From positions 1 to 64,000 of the forward strand of contig JASMHE010000012.1 of assembly GCA_030750865.1 (NCBI GenBank): a stretch of 64,000 bases of DNA, given 5' to 3'. This document shows positions 776 through 11,386 of this stretch, piece after piece (positions within the stretch are counted from its first letter, which is position 1; each line of letters begins with the position of its first letter). Origin of the DNA: Alphaproteobacteria bacterium (lineage in GTDB: Bacteria > Pseudomonadota > Alphaproteobacteria > Micavibrionales > Micavibrionaceae). Under the pieces are notes generated by a model that was not told where the DNA came from, did no database searches, and saw nothing but the letters and a program-made list of their open reading frames with translations. A program made the translations under genes and the position numbers.

Positions 776-2368
776 GTGCTCAACGGATTTACATTTAAAG
801 TTTTGTCAGCATTGGAAAGCTATAATTATAAGGATGCTAAGAATGAAGCTCATTTGATTATTGACGGTTGGGATGACTGGTTTGAATATTCTACATTGTT
901 CATATTAAAAGTTTTTGATGCCAATGGAGAGAAGCATTCAATCGGACCAGTAAAGATTGCTGAATTTGGAATTAAAAAAGGTGATTATTACAAAGCATCA
1001 GACTCTTTGCCTCGTGAGTTTTCAACGCTTCCTTATAAGTTTTTCTCTCTTGGTCAAGATGATAGTTATTTTGAATCTCTGAATGATTTGGGCGATAATT
1101 ATCGAGATCACATTTTTGCATGTTTACACGAAATATCAGTGGACGATGACCTTTATGCCCGAGCAATAGAGGAACCAGTTACTAAAGTGTCATTATTAAG
1201 AAGTGTATCGGTACTGAATGTTAAGGACCAGTATCAAAGACTAGCCTCTGGTGGGGCTCGGCTGACTGAGTATGACTTCTCGTATAGAATGCCAAGATTC
1301 CGAGGAAGCGAATTGGAAAGCCCTACGTTAACATTCAGTGTAAGACCTAACTCTTCTCCGCCTACCAATATGCATGTCGTTATAGGAAGAAACGGTGTTG
1401 GTAAAACAAATCTTTTAAGAAGTATGATTAGATCATTGTTAGACAAGCCATCTGCTCAGAATGGAATGTTTTTTGATGAATATGACATGGCTGTTCAACC
1501 AACAGAGATTTTTTCTAATTTGGTGTCAGTGACATTTAGTGCATTTGATCCTTTTGAGAATATTCGCGAGACTAAAGATACAACCAAGAGAATTAAATAC
1601 TCGTATATTGGTCTTCAGAGACCTCAAACTAATGACGGTAAACAACAGCTTCCGAAAAGTAGAGAGATGTTGGCAAATGAGTTTGTTAAAAGCGCTCAGT
1701 TCTGTATCAGTAGCGGTAGAAAAGCTCGGTGGGCTGATGCGGTTTCTTTCTTGGAGTATGATCAGCTTATAGCAGATTCTGGTATTAAAGATGAGGTTTG
1801 TGGTTTCCCTCTTGCTGAACAAGAGCAAGAAGATTGGGTGAAACGAGTGCGAAAGATATTTGGAAAATTCTCTTCTGGACATGCCATTGTGTTGCTCACA
1901 ATTACAAAATTAGTAGAAACGGTTGATGAAAAAACATTAGTGCTCATGGATGAGCCAGAAGCGTATCTACATCCGCCTTTGCAGTCTGCGTTTATACGCT
2001 CTATTTCTAATTTGTTAGTGCATAGGAACGGAGTTGGTATTCTGGCGACTCACTCGCCTGTTATCCTTCAAGAAGTTCCTAGTTCTTGTGTTTGGAAAAC
2101 ACATAGATTTGGGCAGGTTATTAAAGCGGATAAACCTCAAATAAAAACTTTTGGCGAAAGTGTGGGCGTGTTGACGAGTGAAGTTTTTGGTTTGGAGTTA
2201 ACGCATACGGGGTTTCATAAGATGATTGCCGAAGTTGTTGAGCAGGGGTTGACGTTTGAGCAAATTGTAGAAAATTTTGAAGGACAAATGGGTAAAGAGG
2301 CGCAGGCTATTAGCCTTGCTTTAACGGCTACTAGGGATGTGGGGGAGGATAGCTTTGAAGAAAATTGA
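776..2368 (+). CDS. AAA/ABC-type ATPase, PtuA-like (Septu-like defence)
   Basis: A 530-residue ATPase of the overcoming-lysogeny/RecF-like class. The P-loop GRNGVGKT lies near residue 203, Walker B LVLMDEPEAYLHP near 390, and the switch histidine ATHSPVI near 425. The first ~195 residues form a separate N-terminal region without a motif I recognise, so the ATPase is placed later in the chain than in a minimal PtuA. GTG 776 follows AAAAGGG with suitable spacing. It overlaps the next gene, an HNH nuclease, the two-gene arrangement known for Septu (PtuA ATPase and PtuB nuclease) and for some retron effectors; no reverse transcriptase is present here. By analogy the ATPase would form the scaffold that controls the nuclease during phage infection. 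The ATPase call is firm; the Septu name rests on architecture. Confidence 0.8.
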   Translation: MLNGFTFKVLSALESYNYKDAKNEAHLIIDGWDDWFEYSTLFILKVFDANGEKHSIGPVKIAEFGIKKGDYYKASDSLPREFSTLPYKFFSLGQDDSYFESLNDLGDNYRDHIFACLHEISVDDDLYARAIEEPVTKVSLLRSVSVLNVKDQYQRLASGGARLTEYDFSYRMPRFRGSELESPTLTFSVRPNSSPPTNMHVVIGRNGVGKTNLLRSMIRSLLDKPSAQNGMFFDEYDMAVQPTEIFSNLVSVTFSAFDPFENIRETKDTTKRIKYSYIGLQRPQTNDGKQQLPKSREMLANEFVKSAQFCISSGRKARWADAVSFLEYDQLIADSGIKDEVCGFPLAEQEQEDWVKRVRKIFGKFSSGHAIVLLTITKLVETVDEKTLVLMDEPEAYLHPPLQSAFIRSISNLLVHRNGVGILATHSPVILQEVPSSCVWKTHRFGQVIKADKPQIKTFGESVGVLTSEVFGLELTHTGFHKMIAEVVEQGLTFEQIVENFEGQMGKEAQAISLALTATRDVGEDSFEEN

Positions 2369-3185
2369 CGTAGCTAATATTAATTATGATGATTTGTTCG
2401 AGGCTTGTGTGACTAGCATGCAGCAGCCTAGACAGGCGTACCTACGAGCAGCTAAGCCCCAATTAGATTTGAATAACAATCAATATGAAACACATGCAGG
2501 ATTAGGAAGCCTTTATCAAGTCTCACAGCATACAGATATTACGAGTGACGTTGGCAAAGATGATATGGTCTATCTTTATGATGGGAAATTGTTAGATAAG
2601 GGTAGAGACTATTATAATCTTTTACTTGGTGCAGCTCCTTACGATACATGTCCTTTCTGTTCCCAGAGAAAAGTGAAATCATTAGATCATTATTTGCCCA
2701 AGACCTTGTATCCTAGTTTTTCTATTACCCCTCTGAATCTTATACCATGCTGTTCTGACTGTAATAAGGATAAAGGGACAAAAGACGCTAATACTGCTAG
2801 TGAACAGTTTCTTCACCCTTATTTTGATGATTTGAACGGGTTGATTTGGTTAAAGGCTGAATTGACACAGCGAATTCCAATTTCTTTTGTTTTCAGTGTA
2901 GTTGATATATCGTCTTTAGATTCAATTCTATATAATCGAATTTTACATCAGTTTGAGGTGTTAAATCTTGGTGCTTTATATGCCTCTCATGCCGCAGAAG
3001 AGTTTGAGAACATCAGAAGGATGCTTGTAAAGCTTCAATCTTGTCCTGATGATGGGGCGCTGGCTAAATATCTTCAGATGCAGTTAGATACTTATAAAAG
3101 TACTGATTTGAATTCTTGGGCTACAGCTATGTATGAAGCTCTCTTGAATTCGGAGTGGTTTCTTGAAATGGATTTAGACTACTGA
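2355..3185 (+). CDS. HNH endonuclease, PtuB-like (Septu-like defence)
   Basis: A zinc-finger HNH nuclease of about 276 residues. Cysteine pairs CPFC and CSDC flank LDHYLPK (the DH of the HNH site) and PLNLIPC, then CNKDKG, the usual order for this fold. An ATG at 2337 is in frame, but GGGGGAGG at 2341-2348 sits 6 bases before TTG 2355 (product begins MKKIDVANIN), so TTG is the likely start; the gene overlaps the ATPase by 14 bases, implying translational coupling. In Septu the partner nuclease cleaves nucleic acid when released or activated by the ATPase complex. The domain assignment is strong, the system name is inferred from the pair. Confidence 0.82.
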   Translation: MKKIDVANINYDDLFEACVTSMQQPRQAYLRAAKPQLDLNNNQYETHAGLGSLYQVSQHTDITSDVGKDDMVYLYDGKLLDKGRDYYNLLLGAAPYDTCPFCSQRKVKSLDHYLPKTLYPSFSITPLNLIPCCSDCNKDKGTKDANTASEQFLHPYFDDLNGLIWLKAELTQRIPISFVFSVVDISSLDSILYNRILHQFEVLNLGALYASHAAEEFENIRRMLVKLQSCPDDGALAKYLQMQLDTYKSTDLNSWATAMYEALLNSEWFLEMDLDY

Positions 3186-3338
3186 TAAGCCAAGTCATTT
3201 ATAAGAGTTTATCACAATGTTGTTTATGTTCTTTTGCGATGCAAGCTTTGTCTTTTAGTTAAAACCTTTTCAAACGCAACAGTTTGCGCTCGATAAACGA
3301 TATTGAGGAAATATCCGCACTTATCTTATTTTGCTTGC

Positions 3339-4508
3339 ATGGCAATGCAAAAACTTACAGCGAAATTTATAGAGAACATTCAATCGAATGGAAAACGGCA
3401 AGAGTTTTGCGACCCTTATTTGAAAGGGTTTGGACTTCGTGTCAGTAAAATGAACACAAAAACATTTTTCGTTCGTGTTCGTTATCGTGGCAAAACACAA
3501 AGACACACAATTGGTACTTACCCTTCATATTCTCTTTCTGAAGCTAGAGAGAAAGCGGCTGAGGTTATAGAACAAGCAGAAAAAGGAACGCTCCATAGTG
3601 TAGATGTTCAGAAGCTTACCATTAAAGAAGCATATGAACGTTTTATTGAGCTTTATGCCAAGGTTTATAATAAAGATTGGGCGATGTCAGATTCGCGTTT
3701 GAAGAAGTTCATGGCAGAATATGGTGGTATGGATTTAGCTGATCTTCACCGTAGAGATATTATTGCATTTTTAGATAAATTGGTGGCAGCTGGCACACCA
3801 ACTCAAGCTAATCGTGCACGTGCTGCATTAAGTAGGTTTCTAAATTGGTGTGTTGAGCGCACCTATATTGAGCACAGTCCTTGTCAAGGTGTTCCTAAAC
3901 CTGCAAAAGAGAAGCCAAGAGATCGTGTTTTAACGGATGATGAGATTTTGAAGGTGTTCAATATATCCGATGAGTTCTCCTATCCATTTGGTCCATTGTT
4001 TAAAGTTTTGATGCTAACAGCACAAAGGCGAGGAGAGGTATCAGGTATGCGATGGAGTGAATTGGATTTGCCTAATAAAACTTGGTCTCTTCCAAAAGAA
4101 CGTGCGAAGAATGGAAAAGCTCATATTGTTCCACTGTCTCCTTATGTCGTGGAAATTCTTGAGAGCTTACCACGATTTTTGTATTCTGATTTTGTCTTTA
4201 CAACGACTGGGGAAACACCTGTATCTGGACATGGTAAATATAAATACCGTCTTGATGAAGCTCTTGGTGTGAGTGATTGGGTTTTTCATGATTTTAGACG
4301 CACAGCAGCCTCTGGAATGGCACGCCTTGAAATACCACCATATGTTGTTGAAAAGGTACTTAATCATGTTTCTAGAACATTTTCAGGGGTACATGCTATA
4401 TATAACCGATATGGATATGATCGTGAGAAACGAGAAGCTCTGAATAAATGGGCTGAGTATGTGATTGGATTAGACGATGGAAATAAGCGACAAAGTATTC
4501 AAGGGTAA
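3339..4508 (+). CDS. int: P4-type tyrosine integrase (DUF4102 arm-binding domain)
   Basis: Site-specific recombinase that would integrate and excise the element at tRNA-Met. The N-terminus MQKLTAKFIEN, GFGLRV and YRGKTQRHTIGTYP form the DUF4102 arm-type DNA-binding domain; a core-binding domain covers roughly residues 85-180; the catalytic domain shows QRRGEV (first arginine), HDFRRTA (H-x-x-R) and the nucleophile region AIYNRYGY near the C-terminus. The frame is open from TTG 3303, but family members begin just before the LTA motif, so ATG 3339 (or 3345) is preferred; neither has a good ribosome binding site. Length (about 389) is normal. It lies 3.1 kb from attL. Confidence 0.93.
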   Translation: MAMQKLTAKFIENIQSNGKRQEFCDPYLKGFGLRVSKMNTKTFFVRVRYRGKTQRHTIGTYPSYSLSEAREKAAEVIEQAEKGTLHSVDVQKLTIKEAYERFIELYAKVYNKDWAMSDSRLKKFMAEYGGMDLADLHRRDIIAFLDKLVAAGTPTQANRARAALSRFLNWCVERTYIEHSPCQGVPKPAKEKPRDRVLTDDEILKVFNISDEFSYPFGPLFKVLMLTAQRRGEVSGMRWSELDLPNKTWSLPKERAKNGKAHIVPLSPYVVEILESLPRFLYSDFVFTTTGETPVSGHGKYKYRLDEALGVSDWVFHDFRRTAASGMARLEIPPYVVEKVLNHVSRTFSGVHAIYNRYGYDREKREALNKWAEYVIGLDDGNKRQSIQG

Positions 4509-5221: not shown

Positions 5222-5434
5222 ATGAATGGTAATCAAAGAACCTTGCTCACTCGAAGCGATTTAGCGGAAATGGGCATCTCATATTCAAATTCACATCTTC
5301 TAAAATTGGAAAAAGACGAGTTATTCCCTAAGCGGATATATCTTAGTGCCCAAAAAGTATGTTGGGATTTAACAGAGGTGAATGATTGGCTTGGGACACA
5401 GCGTGCAAGACGTGGAGGTGTTCATCATGGCTAA
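5222..5434 (+). CDS. AlpA-like HTH regulator
   Basis: A 70-residue MerR/AlpA-type helix-turn-helix protein: LLTRSDLAEMGISYSNSHLLKLEKDELFPKR, split here as helix-turn-helix plus wing, followed by WDLTEVNDWL, the usual C-terminal helix. A strong AAAGGAG precedes the ATG. In P4-like satellites and integrative elements AlpA proteins activate integrase/excisionase expression or act as excisionase. It sits between the integrase block and the replication genes, with the palindrome at 5127-5146 upstream as a possible binding site. Its end overlaps the start of the primase by 8 bases. Confidence 0.8.
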   Translation: MNGNQRTLLTRSDLAEMGISYSNSHLLKLEKDELFPKRIYLSAQKVCWDLTEVNDWLGTQRARRGGVHHG

Positions 5435-5939
5435 TAACTTCAAACTTACAGATAACATGTTGTCACGGAGAGTACGTAAGGCTGCCTTAGCATACGCAAG
5501 GGCAGGTGTTCCTGTGTTTCCAGTTTTTGGTATTGAAGATGGTAAATGTCTGTGTGGTAAAAAGAACTGCGAACATGAAGGGAAACACCCTGTTGTGAAA
5601 GGTGGCTTTAAAGAAGCAACAATTGACTCTGACCAGATTAAGCAATGGTGGGAAGAATATCCAAAATCAAACATTGGAAGCCCTCTAGTCGAAGGATTAT
5701 TTGCCTTAGACTTTGATGGAAAGAAAGGTAAGAAAGCTTTTGAAGATTTAGGGTTGGAAGAATTTGAAACTCTTCGAGCGACAACAGGTAAGGGGTTTCA
5801 TCTTTATGTTCATGCGGAATTAAAGGCGAAGAATGATGCTATGTCTGGTTTGGACATTCGAGGTGGTGGAGAAGGTGGTTATATCATCCTTCCGCCAAGT
5901 CGGCACGTGTCTGGTAAACGCTATCAATGGGAGGTTTGA
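5427..5939 (+). CDS. Primase-polymerase N-terminal domain protein (Prim-Pol)
   Basis: A 170-residue single-domain protein of the bifunctional DNA primase/polymerase family. Visible hallmarks are AYARAGVPVFPVFG, KHPVVKGGFKEAT, the acidic metal motif ALDFDGKKG, and GKGFHLYVHA with IRGGGEGGYIILPPS. GGAGG lies before ATG 5427; an upstream in-frame start at 5382 lies deep inside alpA and is unlikely. The protein ends right after the Prim-Pol domain; the primase C-terminal part and ATPase are encoded by the next gene, starting 2 bases after this stop. Together they probably prime and unwind element DNA, as pri-rep of satellites does. A small Cys pair (CLCGKKNCEH) near residue 34 may bind zinc, as in relatives. 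Confidence 0.88.
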   Translation: MANNFKLTDNMLSRRVRKAALAYARAGVPVFPVFGIEDGKCLCGKKNCEHEGKHPVVKGGFKEATIDSDQIKQWWEEYPKSNIGSPLVEGLFALDFDGKKGKKAFEDLGLEEFETLRATTGKGFHLYVHAELKAKNDAMSGLDIRGGGEGGYIILPPSRHVSGKRYQWEV

Positions 5940-5941
5940 TT

Positions 5942-7195
5942 ATGAAGTATGCAAAGAAACTACCTGATGAAATTGTTCAAAAGCTGTCGTCAAAAAAGAA
6001 AGTGAGTGCCGAGCTCCCAGACAAGAAGGGGACGTTTGGCGAAGGAGAACGCAATGATGGTTTATTTAAGCTTACATGCTCTTTGAGACGGCAGAGTATG
6101 AATATGCCAGCGATAAGAAAAGTCGTTAGAAGGGTAAACAAAACACTCTGTAGACCACCTTTGTCAGAAAAAGAACTTGCGGACGTGTTTAAGAGTAGCA
6201 TGCGTTACGATAAAGACGCTTCGGCTGAATTTATCTGTATGTCAGAAATCAAGAGTCAGAAAGTTGAATGGTTCTGGTATCCGTACATGCCTAGCGGTTG
6301 TATAGTCTTTCTTGATGGGCATCCAGGACGTGGTAAATCATATTTTACAATGTGGCTTGCGGCTTTATGTTCAAATGGTGGCACGTTGCCATTCAGCAAT
6401 GAGAAGATATCGAAGCGACGTGTGTTGATTTTGAATGCAGAAGATGATCCTGAACGAACAATGCGTCCCAGATTGGAGAAGGCGGGAGCTGATTTGTCCG
6501 CGGGTAATATTCATTTTCAGGGAGAGTTTAAGCCTCTTTCTGAAGAAGGGATACAGATACTTGAAGCCAAGATAATCAGTTTTAAACCAAGTCTTATCAT
6601 TATTGATCCATTGCTCACCTACATGAGTAGTGATGTGGATGCACATCGATTTGATCAAGTCACTAAATTCCTGACATATATTGATCAACTAGCGCGTGCG
6701 CATAATGTGTGCGTAATTGGTATTCGCCATATGACGAAGTCTGGCGGGGAGCATGCAATCAATAAAGGCATAGGCTCAATCGGTTTTGCTGCTCGTGCTC
6801 GATCTGTGTTGCATATAGGGGCGTCTCGTGATGATCCTGATGTAAAAGGTTTCGCGCATGTAAAGAGTAATTGGTCAGAAACTGGCGATACACTCTTGTA
6901 CAAACTTGAAGGGGGCTCTAAGACGGATTGGCCGAAGTTAGAGTGGGTTGAGGTTGCTGATTACTCTGCGGATTCCCTTGACCCTATTCAATCAGTCGGC
7001 AGGCCAAAGGCGCAAGCCGATTTATCCGATATCTTAATTAAGATACTTGGTGTGGGTACTAAGGGTATCAAAGACATTATGAGTGATTTGGATGTTCGTG
7101 GTGTGACTGTGAGTAAAAGCGTTGTCAATCGTGAGTTGAGGCTTATCGCTGATTGCGAGGGAAAAGGTCCAAAGGCGAGATGGCGTTTAAGATAA
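5942..7195 (+). CDS. RecA-fold ATPase/helicase with PriCT-like N-terminus
   Basis: A 417-residue RepA/AAA_25-type ATPase. Residues about 20-85 resemble a primase C-terminal helical domain (LFKLTCSLRRQSMN, LSEKELADVFKSS). The ATPase has Walker A DGHPGRGKSYF, ILNAEDDPERTMRPRL, Walker B LIIIDPLLTYM and VIGIRHMTKSGG, typical of hexameric RepA-like helicases. The C-terminal ~70 residues look like a winged helix. GGGAGG precedes ATG 5942; the in-frame ATG at 5927 overlaps the primase and lacks a site. It is coupled to the Prim-Pol gene and is likely the replication helicase or loader of the element. Confidence 0.85.
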   Translation: MKYAKKLPDEIVQKLSSKKKVSAELPDKKGTFGEGERNDGLFKLTCSLRRQSMNMPAIRKVVRRVNKTLCRPPLSEKELADVFKSSMRYDKDASAEFICMSEIKSQKVEWFWYPYMPSGCIVFLDGHPGRGKSYFTMWLAALCSNGGTLPFSNEKISKRRVLILNAEDDPERTMRPRLEKAGADLSAGNIHFQGEFKPLSEEGIQILEAKIISFKPSLIIIDPLLTYMSSDVDAHRFDQVTKFLTYIDQLARAHNVCVIGIRHMTKSGGEHAINKGIGSIGFAARARSVLHIGASRDDPDVKGFAHVKSNWSETGDTLLYKLEGGSKTDWPKLEWVEVADYSADSLDPIQSVGRPKAQADLSDILIKILGVGTKGIKDIMSDLDVRGVTVSKSVVNRELRLIADCEGKGPKARWRLR

Positions 7196-7202
7196 ATGAA
7201 GT

Positions 7203-7252
7203 AGTCGTGTCAAAATTATTCGCGCATAATAATGACACGACTCTTTCTTATT
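7203..7252 (+). terminator. Rho-independent terminator after helicase gene
   Basis: The arm AGTCGTGTCA (7203-7212) plus TTATT pairs with AATAATGACACGACT (7228-7242), with a small bulge and a 7-base loop, followed by CTTTCTTATT. It ends the alpA-primase-helicase transcript, 8 bases after the helicase stop. Confidence 0.75.
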
Positions 7253-7460
7253 ACTTCGCGGTTTTTAATATGTTCATTGCCTCGTCCAGTGCTTTCGATC
7301 CTTTTGACCAAATCCATGCTGTTCTCGGTTTGTGATGTTTGGTTAGGTTCGGATTCTTCTTTTCATCCTTTGCGGCTTCACGCAGTAACATACGCGACAG
7401 ACGCGGACAGAGTTTGTGCTCTTTGCAGATTTCTTTCAGTGTAATTGTTTGAGTAGTCAT
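7251..7460 (-). CDS. Small conserved-looking element protein
   Basis: A 69-residue basic protein convergent with the helicase gene. The frame is open from 7508, but AAGGAGAT lies directly upstream of ATG 7460 (product MTTQTITLKEICKEHKL...), which decides the start. The pattern LKEICKEHKLCPRLSRMLLR looks like a helix-turn-helix, followed by AWIWSKGSKALDEA. I recall proteins of this type from small mobile elements, without an assigned role; a DNA-binding or copy-control role is inference. Its 5' side opens onto a long non-coding region. Confidence 0.7.
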   Translation of the reverse strand: MTTQTITLKEICKEHKLCPRLSRMLLREAAKDEKKNPNLTKHHKPRTAWIWSKGSKALDEAMNILKTAK

Positions 7461-8146
7461 ATTGATCTCCTTCTTTTGTTTCAAACATGAAGACCATAAG
7501 ACAGTCATCGCAATATCTCAGCGAAAACTCGCAATAGGGCTCTTAGACCGACACACTGATAAATGATCATTTTTTAATAGGTTTTCACCGCTTGCTTGGA
7601 TTCGGGTTTGGTAAGTGATGATTGCTAACGGGTATCATACGGGAAATTGTTGCTCTTATTTTTCCGAATGAAGATACACCTATGAAAACTTAAGCATAGA
7701 GTGAGATGCATTCTTATTCAGAAAGTGACCTATGGGAAACATGCTCTACAAAAAGCCATTAAACGGCCATTATTAAATGGCGTAGGCGGCTGAGAGAATT
7801 ATTCTGGTGTATTGTGGTGTAATTGTATTTCTAGGCACGTGTACGGTCATTTCTGGCGAATATATGCAACTAATATCAGCTTTGAGAGCGTAGCCCCTTC
7901 CATTCTTCTCCAAATCAAACTATCCTGACATTGAAGTTGTTACGCAGCAACTTTGGGGCTTTACAACCTCGACAATAGTGGTTTTTGCATCAACCAAAAA
8001 AAGATGCGTCCTTGACCTATGGTCGGGAAGCTTGTGCTATACAACAGGCTTCACGGCTAAAATCACAAGGATCGTCTATTGTCGATTTGTAAACTTCCCG
8101 ACTGCCAGTCAAGTTATCCGCGGGGGCGCACCGCAGGGAGTTTGCC
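7461..8146. other. Non-coding region of the element with several hairpins
   Basis: No supported reading frame in about 690 bases. Visible structure: GCCATT-loop-AATGGC at 7766-7781 with another GCCATT at 7755; an arm pair AAGTTGTT/AGCAACTT around 7935-7955; and a multi-branched fold at 8022-8102 described separately. The region lies between the 5' end of the small minus-strand gene and the GIY-YIG gene, so it must hold the promoter of the former. An origin of replication is possible, because the primase and helicase lie next to it, but I see no clear iteron array. Confidence 0.45.
8022..8102 (+). ncRNA. Candidate structured leader RNA upstream of GIY-YIG gene
   Basis: GTCGGGAAG (8022-8030) is exactly complementary to CTTCCCGAC (8094-8102), extendable by one G-U pair. 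CTTGTG (8031-8036) pairs with CACAAG (8065-8070), directly stacked on the first stem, and ATCG/CGAT forms a third short stem inside. Such nested, coaxial pairing is more than a simple hairpin. The fold ends 45 bases before the GIY-YIG coding frame. Function unknown; a cis-regulatory leader or small RNA is inference. Confidence 0.4.
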
Positions 8147-8575
8147 ATTAAAATACCAGATATTCAATTTTCAGATTGGTACGCATGGGATGATGTAAAA
8201 AGCATTCCGCATGGAGATAAAACGGGTCTGTATATCATTGCTCGTTTTGATAAGAAGCCAGAGGGTATCGCAGATCATGAAGCCAGAGAAATTCTTTACG
8301 TCGGTGTGACGACTGGAAAATCACAAAGCATTCATAAACGCTTGAATACGTTTTTTAAGGCTGCTCGCGTTGGTGAAGGAATTCATAAACACAGCGGTGG
8401 TAATCGCTTTAATCGAGAATTGGGCGATGATTTGACTAACATCTATGCGGCAGGCTTTGCGCCAGAACTGGAAGAAAAAAAGTTTTTAAACCCATACATC
8501 TTCTATGCAGAACGCAAGCTGATTTGGGATTATATCGTTTTGCATGGCACTATACCGCAATGTAATGGCTATTGA
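8147..8575 (+). CDS. GIY-YIG nuclease-like protein with apparent ATT start
   Basis: A frame of 142 codons reads GLYIIARFDKK, ILYVGVT and HKRLNTFF, then AERKLIWDYIVLHG and PQCN: the GIY, YIG, following Arg, Glu and Asn of the GIY-YIG fold in the right order. Translation from GTG 8306 (89 residues) would delete the GIY and YIG strands. The frame is open back to a TAA near 8089, and the only good ribosome binding site, AGGGAG at 8135-8140, stands 6 bases before ATT at 8147. Either ATT is used (rare, as in infC), another weak codon is used, or the start was lost and the gene is decaying. Domain call confident; expression uncertain. Confidence 0.65.
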   Translation: MKIPDIQFSDWYAWDDVKSIPHGDKTGLYIIARFDKKPEGIADHEAREILYVGVTTGKSQSIHKRLNTFFKAARVGEGIHKHSGGNRFNRELGDDLTNIYAAGFAPELEEKKFLNPYIFYAERKLIWDYIVLHGTIPQCNGY

Positions 8576-8586
8576 AGCAGCCCTGT

Positions 8587-11163
8587 TTACTTAGTAATAA
8601 GTGCATTGAATAAATCGCTGTCATGTGCAACATAGCGGTAATATTGGGGGGGGGTGAAACCCTCTAATAAAGTTTTGAGCTCTGGAAGAGTTATCTTTTT
8701 ACTTAAGCGCTGTGGGTTTTCAATATGGATAGCATAGGCTGTATCTGCTCCGTCATAATATTTGTCAAATTCTGATTTGCTTATACAGCACTTCTTTTGA
8801 TATTTTTTCCAGATTTCTTCTGGCGTGCCCTTCTCAACATTAGATACGTATACGGAAGCTTCAACCGCACTCGTAGGGCTGGTGGTATATATCCAAACAC
8901 GGATGCGATCTTTAGCAGGAAATGGCTTCTTCCTTAGTTCTATGGTCTTTTTACCATTTAGAATCTTTGTTACATAGTTTGGCTGTATAGATAAAAGAAC
9001 ATCTTTTGTAGCCTGTTCCATGCCTTCGTGGAGGATTGTAGATAATTGCTCGAAGGTTATTCTTTCAGGGCCAACTAGATTAGCTTTTGCGCAATTAAGC
9101 TCTTGTAAGCGTTTAATTGGAAGTGGGTTAGAGAAAACTTTGAAGTTATCGAATGTGATAACTTGCACGTTTCCGTTTCCATCGGCTTGCTTTCTAAGGA
9201 GATTCTTATCTAGTACTCCATGTTTGCGATATAGCTTTAGCGCGTTTTGTAACTGGACGATTTTAATGGATGTTATTCGGGCACAACCTATAACGCCTCG
9301 TCCTGAGCCAGATTCATAGAAGATTAACGGGCTGCCAACTGAAAACATTTTAGTGTTTTTGGGTTTCCTAAAATAAGCTTTTTCGGTTCTGAGTAGTGCT
9401 TGTTCTGATTGCGCAAAAGGGAGAAGATTTTCTGGGCGAGATAAAAGATTTTCAGAAAATGCAGGGGCAATCGGAAGGATGACGCCAGTTCTTTTGGGGA
9501 GCAGTAAAAGAGACGGGGAAAGTAATGTCTCTATTTGGAACAATTCTGCTTCATAGTCACGACCAGTTTTTGCAGCTTGAATAATCGGAGTTTTATAGCT
9601 GTTAAGGCGGATGTTGGGTATTTGTCGTGGTAGTTGTATGTCAGTATAATTTGCAAAGGTTTCTCTAAATTCTTCCCAGTTCGATTTCGTTACTAAAAGA
9701 GGGCACGGGATTTTAATTAATTTAATCATGCCTTTATATGATGATTTTGCGCGTTCAAATCCTCGTGAGAGGCAGATTTTTTCGAAGTCAAAATCTTCCG
9801 CACGTATGTGAAATGCCATGTTGGTTGCTTTTATGTTTTGTGCGTTGAGCATGAATAGCTCGAGCATATGTTGGAAGATAGTCTCACGACTTTTGAAGTG
9901 TACATCTGAAGCTATAAAGAAACCTTCTAGTGCATTGTGTTTAGTTCCTCTTGTTTGTGCTACATACACTGCACTCTCTTCTTCTCCGAGCATTACTAGT
10001 TTTCTGTTGCGCGTACCTCGTGTAGAATTTTTAAGAAGGGCTTTTGATACATCCGATAAATTTGTATCAAGTTTTTCTAAGAATGGACGTATTTTTGCCG
10101 AATTTGTAATGTCTGAGATATGGATATCATAACTCTCGTCAGAAATTGGAACGCTAATGGCTGCGAGATCTTTACCAGCGTATTCAACCTTAAAATCCTG
10201 CGGTGAAAGTATATTTAAACCATATTTGTCACGAAACATTTCTTTCGCTTTTAGCAGCGTAGTTTCTTCGGTAATAAAACCTGTTTTTGTGTTGTGAATA
10301 CAGTAGGCAAGGTGCTTTAAATCAGATTCATCGTTTTTAGCATTTTTACGAGTTCTGCTTCTATTTGGAAAAACTAAAGGTCGAAGTTCTTCTTTTAATA
10401 CGTCGAGTTCGTTATCGTCTATTTTTTCTAAAACGGGTAATGCTTTTTCGGCTAAGTCGAGCAGCGGATCTGTATTTTCTTGTTTGTTGCGCTTAAGTTC
10501 CTCTTGAAATTCGGGGGTTACAAACAGATTGAACTCGCCTCCCATAGATGCTTGCATTATTTCAGATACAAGTTTTTCATTGTCGCGTTTTTTTAATAAT
10601 GTAAGAAAAATATTTAAATCTAAGACATAGTCTTCCGTTTCATCCGTCATGGTTTCGGAGTTTATGCTTAGAGGCAGCGGTTCGTTTGGAAGTAAGCTGG
10701 GTGTTGATAATCTTTTGTGAAATATTAATACTTCTCGTCCAGTAGTATTTAACTTCTTCCTAGGTGCTAGTGCGCAAAATCCTTGAGACTGCCAGAATTG
10801 AACAGCATCTGTTAGGTCGTTTGCTACATCTGCGCGCAAATTGAGGCACGAGAGGCTTTCTCCATATTTTGTTACTTCTTCTATTAGTGATGTTGCAACA
10901 CCCAATCCACGTGTTTTGGGTTCAACATAAATCTGAAAAATGCGTATTTCTTGGGGCGGTTTTCCACCATGCATGATGTGCCCCAGATATTTATTGTTTA
11001 GGTCTGCCGCGATCCATAACTTTCCGTTATTGATAGCATCTTCATAGGCTCCTAAAGATAGGAAACCGAATGCATTTTTATTTTTGTCAGTTACTTCTTT
11101 TACTTTGTTTAAAAAGGGTAATAGCTTGGTGGGGTCTTTAACAATAGTGAAAGGACTGTTCAT
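8587..11163 (-). CDS. GNAT / PIN-like / GNAT-like / PUA-like / ASCH fusion protein
   Basis: An 858-residue multidomain protein. Residues 1-155: GNAT acetyltransferase with acetyl-CoA loop RGLGVATSL at 85-93. Residues 178-330: PIN-like nuclease pattern with D182 (VLDLN), E218 (TPEFQEEL), D278/D281 (NDESDLKHLA) and TGFITEETTLL where PIN proteins usually keep another acidic residue. Residues 345-487: second GNAT-like fold, ending CLSRGFERAKS. Residues ~600-690: PUA/EVE-like segment (SVGSPLIFYES, GVIGCARI). Residues 721-845: ASCH domain (LLSIQPNYVTKILNGKKTIELR split around 724-745, AYAIHIENP). PUA/ASCH folds bind modified or structured nucleic acid; PIN cleaves RNA; GNAT could modify tRNA or protein. 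A complete toxin or antiviral machine in one chain is inference. It fills the right end of the element, transcribed away from attR. Confidence 0.75.
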   Translation of the reverse strand: MNSPFTIVKDPTKLLPFLNKVKEVTDKNKNAFGFLSLGAYEDAINNGKLWIAADLNNKYLGHIMHGGKPPQEIRIFQIYVEPKTRGLGVATSLIEEVTKYGESLSCLNLRADVANDLTDAVQFWQSQGFCALAPRKKLNTTGREVLIFHKRLSTPSLLPNEPLPLSINSETMTDETEDYVLDLNIFLTLLKKRDNEKLVSEIMQASMGGEFNLFVTPEFQEELKRNKQENTDPLLDLAEKALPVLEKIDDNELDVLKEELRPLVFPNRSRTRKNAKNDESDLKHLAYCIHNTKTGFITEETTLLKAKEMFRDKYGLNILSPQDFKVEYAGKDLAAISVPISDESYDIHISDITNSAKIRPFLEKLDTNLSDVSKALLKNSTRGTRNRKLVMLGEEESAVYVAQTRGTKHNALEGFFIASDVHFKSRETIFQHMLELFMLNAQNIKATNMAFHIRAEDFDFEKICLSRGFERAKSSYKGMIKLIKIPCPLLVTKSNWEEFRETFANYTDIQLPRQIPNIRLNSYKTPIIQAAKTGRDYEAELFQIETLLSPSLLLLPKRTGVILPIAPAFSENLLSRPENLLPFAQSEQALLRTEKAYFRKPKNTKMFSVGSPLIFYESGSGRGVIGCARITSIKIVQLQNALKLYRKHGVLDKNLLRKQADGNGNVQVITFDNFKVFSNPLPIKRLQELNCAKANLVGPERITFEQLSTILHEGMEQATKDVLLSIQPNYVTKILNGKKTIELRKKPFPAKDRIRVWIYTTSPTSAVEASVYVSNVEKGTPEEIWKKYQKKCCISKSEFDKYYDGADTAYAIHIENPQRLSKKITLPELKTLLEGFTPPQYYRYVAHDSDLFNALITK

Positions 11164-11303: not shown

Positions 11304-11355
11304 AAATAATGGTAGCGGGAGAGGGACTTGAACCCCCGACACAAGGATTATGATT
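11304..11355. repeat. attR: 52-bp repeat within tRNA-Met
   Basis: Identical to 119-170. It reconstitutes the 3' half of the tRNA gene, so the host tRNA stays functional after integration. Confidence 0.92.
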
Positions 11356-11386
11356 CCTCTGCTCTAACCACCTGAGCTACCCCGCC
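11310..11386 (-). tRNA. tRNA-Met (CAU anticodon), elongator type
   Basis: A 77-base cloverleaf with encoded CCA. The acceptor is GGCGGGG pairing with TCCCGCT, D arm GCTC/GAGC, anticodon loop ATCATAA on an AGGA/TCCT stem, T loop TTCAAGT. Anticodon CAT means Met, or Ile if the C is lysidinylated; overall it resembles alphaproteobacterial elongator Met tRNA. The 3' half is supplied by the element's att copy. Confidence 0.93.

Follow-up and report, generated by a model that had tools for sequence, protein, structure and literature searches.

C4 is an RNA of about 77 nt that is cut by RNase P at its P1 stem and binds its target through the a' and b' loops (PMC5320573), and full repression of ant in phage P1 needs it (PMC8198154). 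The c4 and c4-a1b1 motifs appear in Weinberg 2010 (PMC2864571). Another RNA, sRNA-Xcc1, was mapped by RACE as a species of about 88 nt (PMC2996969) and lies upstream of symE in Xanthomonas integrons (PMC12444791). One table in PMC12189769 names both sRNA-Xcc1 and C4 and draws no link between them, and in the CC literature searched we found no link of sRNA-Xcc1 to antirepressors. Noncanonical start codons, such as ATT of infC and GTC of sigR, are repressed by IF3 (PMC5472188), and an AUU start has been reported for Borrelia PncA (PMC13398362).

Here, we describe a locus within 64,000 nt of contig JASMHE010000012.1 from an alphaproteobacterium of the Micavibrionaceae (the window), at which a GIY-YIG-like ORF with a putative ATT start codon directly follows a C4-like RNA. 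The RNA ahead of the ORF is a larger finding than the start codon.

A Conserved Reading Frame with a Putative AUU Start

The ORF and its ribosome site are as follows.

8135-8140, plus strand: Shine-Dalgarno (SD) sequence AGGGAG; GGGAGTTTGC at 8136-8145 can pair with 8089-8098
8147-8575, plus strand: ORF of the divergent GIY-YIG protein (142 aa), with ATT as start codon

The frame is open from 8093, immediately after an in-frame TAA (8090-8092), to the stop codon at 8573-8575. As the initial annotation had pointed out, six bases separate AGGGAG from the ATT (8147-8149), and the intact frame beginning there carries the complete motif set, G27-L-Y29, Y51-V-G53, R65, E122 and N140 when counted from ATT. 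It had also rightly placed the first ordinary start (ATG, GTG or TTG) of the frame at GTG 8306, from which the product would have 89 aa and lose both the GLY and YVG motifs. Two readings had been offered, rare non-AUG initiation or a gene silenced by a single base change, and an alignment of homologues had been proposed; neither the structured RNA nor the element had been noted.

Matches to the protein occurred in 5 of 58 relatives (own genome counted; G024 partial only), in 8 of 104 genomes of the family by profile search at E<=0.001, in 9 of 142 genomes order-wide, which added the distant relatives L017 and L018, and in 5 of 385 genomes class-wide (own genome counted). The genome collection lists one carrier as Micavibrio sp. 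UBA6929 and two as unplaced Alphaproteobacteria; the viral, phage and plasmid collections searched yielded no protein relatives. Full-length copies numbered five, from five genera (window, G002, G032, G003 and G076). G024 and G091 retained only 3' remnants, and the match in G118 was weak and fell within an unrelated-looking 825-aa frame.

The alignment showed ATT as start codon in the window, G002, G032 and G076, TTG in G003 and ATG in none of the five, with an SD-to-start spacing of 6-7 bases throughout. Over the 10 pairs among these copies, pN was 0.17-0.23 versus a pS of 0.67-0.85, and dN/dS was 0.07-0.13 in the 3 pairs where it was computable; amino acids are kept and synonymous sites are near saturation. 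Judged by these measures, the coding frame of the five copies is under purifying selection. Furthermore, L080, a distant relative without the upstream RNA, reads ATG AAA ATA CCG where the window reads ATT AAA ATA CCA, and therefore the window's ATT stands at a start position. The initial annotation had allowed for homologues that extend well upstream of 8147. In L080 a stop codon stands immediately before the ATG and leaves no room for such an extension, and in L017 the first ATG of the frame comes two residues later than the window's ATT. The DNA just 5' of ATT is conserved among the copies, yet it contains frame-breaking indels, which make a start 5' of the ATT unlikely.

If an ATG-to-ATT mutation had silenced the gene and left a decaying relic, the ATG of L080 at this codon and the decayed 3' remnants in G024 and G091 would fit, but four genomes of different genera share the identical ATT, the frame is under purifying selection, and the SD spacing is retained in all five copies; we regard silencing as very improbable. 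A base-calling error for ATG is likewise unlikely because the ATT recurs in four genomes. Since the copies keep the frame with ATT or TTG, and since L080 ATG-AAA-ATA matches ATT-AAA-ATA of the window, the locus most likely has a conserved non-AUG start rather than a silenced gene. Initiation would then take place at the AUU itself, and such a weak start might limit the expression of a toxic nuclease.

Probable Assignment of the Protein to GIY-YIG

We aligned ten sequences, the window protein and nine relatives, of which L018 was cut short. F8, W11, G27, Y29, Y51, G53, R65, L66, F69, H82 and G84 were invariant, and E122 was conserved at 90% or more; the N motif was present in the five close copies and in L080, L081 and L083, and was not aligned in L017. 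The GIY, YIG, R, E and N motif set is conserved as a whole. The window protein itself matched nothing in Pfam, GIY-YIG included (E up to 10), NCBIfam (E up to 1), PHROGs (E up to 0.1) or PADLOC (E up to 0.01), and a four-sequence profile matched no PDB sequence (E up to 10). Two relatives found by profile, L082 and L083, matched Pfam GIY-YIG weakly and below the cut-off (E 0.013 and 0.023). Because the window protein lacks a database match, the GIY-YIG label derives from the motif set and these two relatives. An AlphaFold model from four sequences was poor (pLDDT 47.8), and Foldseek returned nothing at E<=0.001 with a model too poor to inform. DNA cutting by this protein is probable, and is put no higher because the family match is absent and the model poor.

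A Structured RNA Directly Precedes the ORF

The upstream region contains the following elements.

7898-7926, plus strand: possible leader promoter, TTCCAT at 7898-7903 and TATCCT at 7921-7926, recognized by eye from alignments
7930-8146, plus strand: structured leader RNA, C4-like, from covariation on alignment A7 and swap tests; 5' end putative
7960-7978, plus strand: helix strands a1 (TTTACAA, 7960-7966) and b1 (TCGACAATAG, 7969-7978), upstream complements of a' and b'
7980-8007, plus strand: H-type pseudoknot, GGTT/AACC (by eye) with GCATC/GATGC (tested)
8022-8110, plus strand: sRNA-Xcc1-like core; P1 stem 8022-8030 with 8094-8102; GCCA at 8104-8107
8076-8098, plus strand: b' (8076-8085), a' (8087-8093) and anti-SD stretch GTAAACTTCC (8089-8098)

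About 220 nt directly upstream of the ORF constitute a structured RNA with pseudoknots, in which the names a1 and b1 are ours by presumed analogy with C4. A sigma-70 consensus scan gave no plus-strand site within 7500-8700. A covariance model, R1, was built from five upstream regions, that of the window among them; it matched 7883-8152 of the window, one of its own source sequences, with 259.5 bits, and 63 of the 142 genomes of the order at E<=0.01, with no match in L080-L083, L017 or L018. The sixth strong R1 match, L024, has lost most of the 5' strand of P1. Its RNA ends in GGGAG TTTGC ATG, with the same SD, and leads into a different GIY-YIG-like ORF, the ATG of which marks the same start position.

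Thirty RNAs were then aligned (A7), 24 of them from loci L025-L049 with L044 excluded. This alignment supports hairpins H1 and H2, a kissing helix from the H2 loop, a long-range helix H3, the second pseudoknot helix H5, and P1. Paired cells amounted to 90.1%, and both sides had changed in 25 of 34 pairs. None of 500 shuffles scored as high on any of five measures, sliding the alignment by 1-3 columns lowered pairing to at most 47%, and when strands were swapped between loci the real pairing was better for each of the five helices tested. By helix tests and covariation, a' and b' are complementary to the upstream a1 and b1, as in C4. RCCA follows P1 in 30 of 30 sequences, and a 5' domain of about 90 nt, absent from the Rfam model, covaries with the core.

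Two further pairings were considered. An upstream CTTCC pairing with the SD was dropped because the CTTCC falls inside the conserved promoter-like region. RNAalifold proposed a b' hairpin, against which stands the long-range helix that covaries over the 30 sequences; both may form, at different times.

Copies of the RNA Elsewhere in the Order

Loci L024-L049 comprise 26 copies. The scan covered 25 of their downstream ORFs, 24 from the order plus that of L049, and excluded L028, whose frame is broken. None contained an antirepressor domain. Nuclease-like matches comprised HNH (L033), GIY-YIG (L040), PDDEXK_5 (L045) and NERD (L046), all below curated cut-offs except HNH in L033; further GIY-YIG-like ORFs were L032, at E 0.037 only, and L024, by motif alone. 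The others included some zinc ribbons, a few further weak matches and many unmatched lipoprotein-like or membrane ORFs. Starts at the 24 standard-type loci (L025-L048, as picked) were 19 ATG, 4 GTG and 1 TTG, and thus ATT is peculiar to the GIY-YIG type among these loci. Among viral contigs, the motif of the RNA core matched exactly once, in L049; the motif of the 3' part matched nowhere. L049 is an IMG/VR contig on which the RNA precedes a lipoprotein-like gene, with a serine recombinase and a patatin-like ORF alongside (names by eye).

The 24 standard loci carry a hairpin, ACCAGA/TCTGGT, between RNA and ORF, the columns of which pair in 71%-100% of sequences; in about 20 of the 24 loci a run of at least four T comes after it (by eye). 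Alternative helices are possible among the hairpin, the SD and the 3' strand of the RNA. Duplexes with the own partner surpassed swapped ones, which did as well in 4 of 5000 permutations (n=24); this advantage is due in part to the cis hairpin.

With a structured RNA immediately ahead of a nuclease-like ORF, the locus has an IscB-like layout. The GIY-YIG protein might, on this view, use the RNA as guide or cofactor, and several copies in the order do precede nuclease-like ORFs. However, the majority of the scanned copies stand ahead of genes that match no nuclease, and the protein families are unrelated. The variable strands, moreover, find their partners within the leader itself and, across the wider family, at the ribosome site. 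Copies in the single-contig genome G076 are scattered and lie ahead of unrelated genes, and on this evidence we rejected both RNA-guided cleavage, which seems hardly credible, and integron-like arrays.

A Proposed Resemblance of the sRNA-Xcc1 Family to C4

The 3' part of the window RNA matched Rfam RF02221 (sRNA-Xcc1) with 42.2 bits (E 5.7e-6), below the gathering threshold of 53. Five standard loci scanned permissively scored 28.7-44.2 bits, none of them reaching gathering; four had E<=0.0014 and L027 had E 0.19. At the gathering threshold 0 of 20 loci matched. RF01695 (C4) was listed in none of six Rfam scans, which included window 7850-8620 and the five standard loci (permissive), and of which one omitted two overlapping same-clan matches with names not given. 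In Rfam, RF02221 has no clan, and c4-2 belongs to CL00128.

Across Pseudomonadota, RF02221 matched 57 of 398 genomes, 39 of them over the cut-off, and 0 of 14 controls. Among 30 loci, 8 were incomplete and excluded (L052, L060, L061, L069, L071, L073, L075 and L078). ORF starts for the duplex test were picked by script, some being doubtful (L062, L064 and L072), and were otherwise set by hand at the short ORF before the Bro-N ORF (L054, L063 and L065) or by eye (L028 and L041). In the 22 complete loci, the RNA 3' strand was computed to pair with the ribosome site of its own downstream ORF with a mean of -26.3 kcal/mol versus -19.5 kcal/mol for those of others, and 0 of 5000 permutations were as good (n=22). 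Pfam scanning of 21 downstream ORFs (L064 excluded) assigned 10 to antirepressor or phage-regulator families, namely 5 Bro-N (one below cut-off), 1 KilA-N, 1 P22_AR_N and 3 Rha, alongside 2 SymE, 1 Rap1a and 8 unmatched; Bro-N was the second ORF after a short one in L054, L063 and L065. Similarly, an RF02221 match of 86.1 bits ends 38 bases before ant in Haemophilus phage Aaphi23, and one of 79.7 bits ends 36 bases before the KilA-N gene in Acinetobacter phage 4316. The wider family shows a three-copy layout, a1/b1, a'/b' and a2/b2, ahead of antirepressors. RCC directly follows P1 in about half of the 22 loci by eye (the automatic count was 0, with P1 over-extended by one pair).

From these data we argue that the sRNA-Xcc1 family is C4-like, resembling the antisense RNA of P1 and P7, which would connect an sRNA family discussed in print with regard to virulence to phage-type antisense immunity through a pairing model that is simple and testable.

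At L072 (1473-1475, minus strand), the Rha antirepressor behind an sRNA-Xcc1 RNA reads ACG, where the homologue L077 has ATG after a similar SD; this is possibly another noncanonical start within a C4-like module.

Predicted Pairing of the RNA with the Ribosome Site in the Window

Folding from the b' region onwards paired GTAAACTTCC (8089-8098) with GGGAGTTTGC (8136-8145). In the processed form, from P1 onwards, the SD was covered in all five ATT/TTG-type loci (mean P(unpaired) 0.00-0.14). In the full leader it was partly open in four loci (0.22-0.45) and at 0.00 in G003, with folds that ignore pseudoknots. Partner swapping among the five gave 1046 of 5000 permutations as good, a sample (n=5) that cannot discriminate. 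A two-part a2/b2 target was not seen in these five loci, where pairing consists of an 8-10 bp SD match. By analogy with C4, the RNA may exert C4-like control over the window's nuclease gene.

The same observations bear on a leader that acts only in cis, as an attenuator of riboswitch type by which the ribosome site of the nuclease (or, in the relatives, a terminator) is opened or closed, and never in trans. Such a leader would account for the ACCAGA/TCTGGT hairpin and T run of the standard loci, for the alternative helices with the RNA 3' strand and SD, for an own-partner advantage that partly reflects the cis hairpin, and for visible complementarity in ATT loci that lies in the SD just downstream. 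Nevertheless, it is at odds with the three-copy layout before antirepressors elsewhere in the family, with the invariant RCCA after P1 in A7, and with the RNA of about 88 nt mapped for sRNA-Xcc1 (PMC2996969). We consider exclusive cis action rather unlikely.

The Locus Lies in an Element at tRNA-Met

The neighborhood of the RNA and ORF contains the following features.

119-170: attL, 52-bp exact repeat of the tRNA-Met 3' part, direct repeat with 11304-11355
3303-4508, plus strand: tyrosine integrase (Pfam Phage_integrase, E 2.4e-19)
5222-5434, 5382-5939 and 5927-7195, plus strand: AlpA, Prim-Pol and AAA_25/PriCT_1 genes (Pfam)
11304-11355: attR, in the 3' part of tRNA-Met (11310-11386, minus strand)

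The 52-bp tRNA-Met repeats bound an 11.2-kb element with the RNA and nuclease ORF inside. In G076, G003 and G002 the copies also adjoin tRNA-Met, each with an integrase-like ORF (by eye), which suggests that RNA and nuclease are part of the element core. G002 has a repeat of 35 bp, 11.2 kb apart; the G076 and G003 stretches showed no repeat of 25 bp or more. In L005 (1300-1650), the G024 GIY-YIG 3' remnant lies about 150 bp from a tRNA-Met 3' repeat (by eye) and is apparently a decayed element at the same site.

Other genes of the window were also noted. An AAA ATPase and HNH pair at 776-3185, matching PADLOC PDC-M01A/PtuA and PDC-M01B, lies inside the same element and is a candidate anti-phage system. 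An 858-aa protein (8587-11163, minus strand) has GNAT, PIN-like and ASCH domains, and its C-terminal parts match PADLOC PDC-M11A/B. A small ORF (7251-7508, minus strand) is divergent from the RNA, with similar ORFs in L002 and L004 (by eye).

Discussion

We assign a probability of about 0.6 to the window holding a functional divergent GIY-YIG nuclease gene with an AUU start that is regulated by a C4-like module. Comparison between genomes supports the conserved frame, AUU or UUG at the start position, the RNA structure and the element's place at tRNA-Met. Nuclease production is probably held down in two ways, by the AUU start and by the C4-like RNA.

From here we infer a scheme of RNase P cleavage, antisense action on the window's gene, nuclease activity and a biological role. 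Structured leader and nuclease ORF would be parts of a single transcript. While the leader is nascent, a1/b1 would pair with a'/b' and leave the ribosome site relatively open. An enzyme, probably RNase P, would then cut at the tRNA-like P1 stem and set free an antisense RNA; a 5' end made at P1 is consistent with RCCA in 30 of 30 sequences and with the 88-nt sRNA-Xcc1 RNA. The a' strand and P1 3' strand of the released RNA could then cover the SD, in cis or in trans, and AUU would be a second, IF3-sensitive brake. A resident cell would thus make little nuclease, with a burst upon entry of the element into a naive cell or upon loss of the RNA.

More tentatively, and perhaps going too far, sRNA-Xcc1 RNAs could be a broad, unrecognized family of C4-like immunity RNAs of mobile elements, recruited in this order to silence nucleases and small envelope proteins and elsewhere SymE-type toxins; in one element module, the combination of such an RNA with the AUU start would yield a doubly braked nuclease that fires on naive-cell entry or element loss. 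If so, this nuclease would be an addiction or exclusion device. Beyond infC, the ORF is also a conserved candidate for initiation at AUU; gene finders that accept only ATG, GTG and TTG overlook such starts.

Like C4 of P1 and P7 (c4-icd-ant, immI), the window RNA would share one transcription unit with its target ORF and has upstream antisense complements, a tRNA-like stem and predicted ribosome-site pairing. The presumed target, however, is a GIY-YIG ORF with an AUU start, the predicted pairing occurs in one short block, and the Rfam scans listed no C4 match. With sRNA-Xcc1 ahead of symE in Xanthomonas integron cassettes it shares the RNA core upstream of a toxin-like gene, whereas its score falls under gathering and it adds the covarying 5' domain of about 90 nt. 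Its start resembles those of infC (AUU) and sigR (GUC), both under IF3 control, in that a noncanonical codon would serve as a brake; the window gene, however, is a predicted nuclease of a mobile element and neither a translation nor a stress gene, and an IF3 brake is proposed here by analogy with those two.
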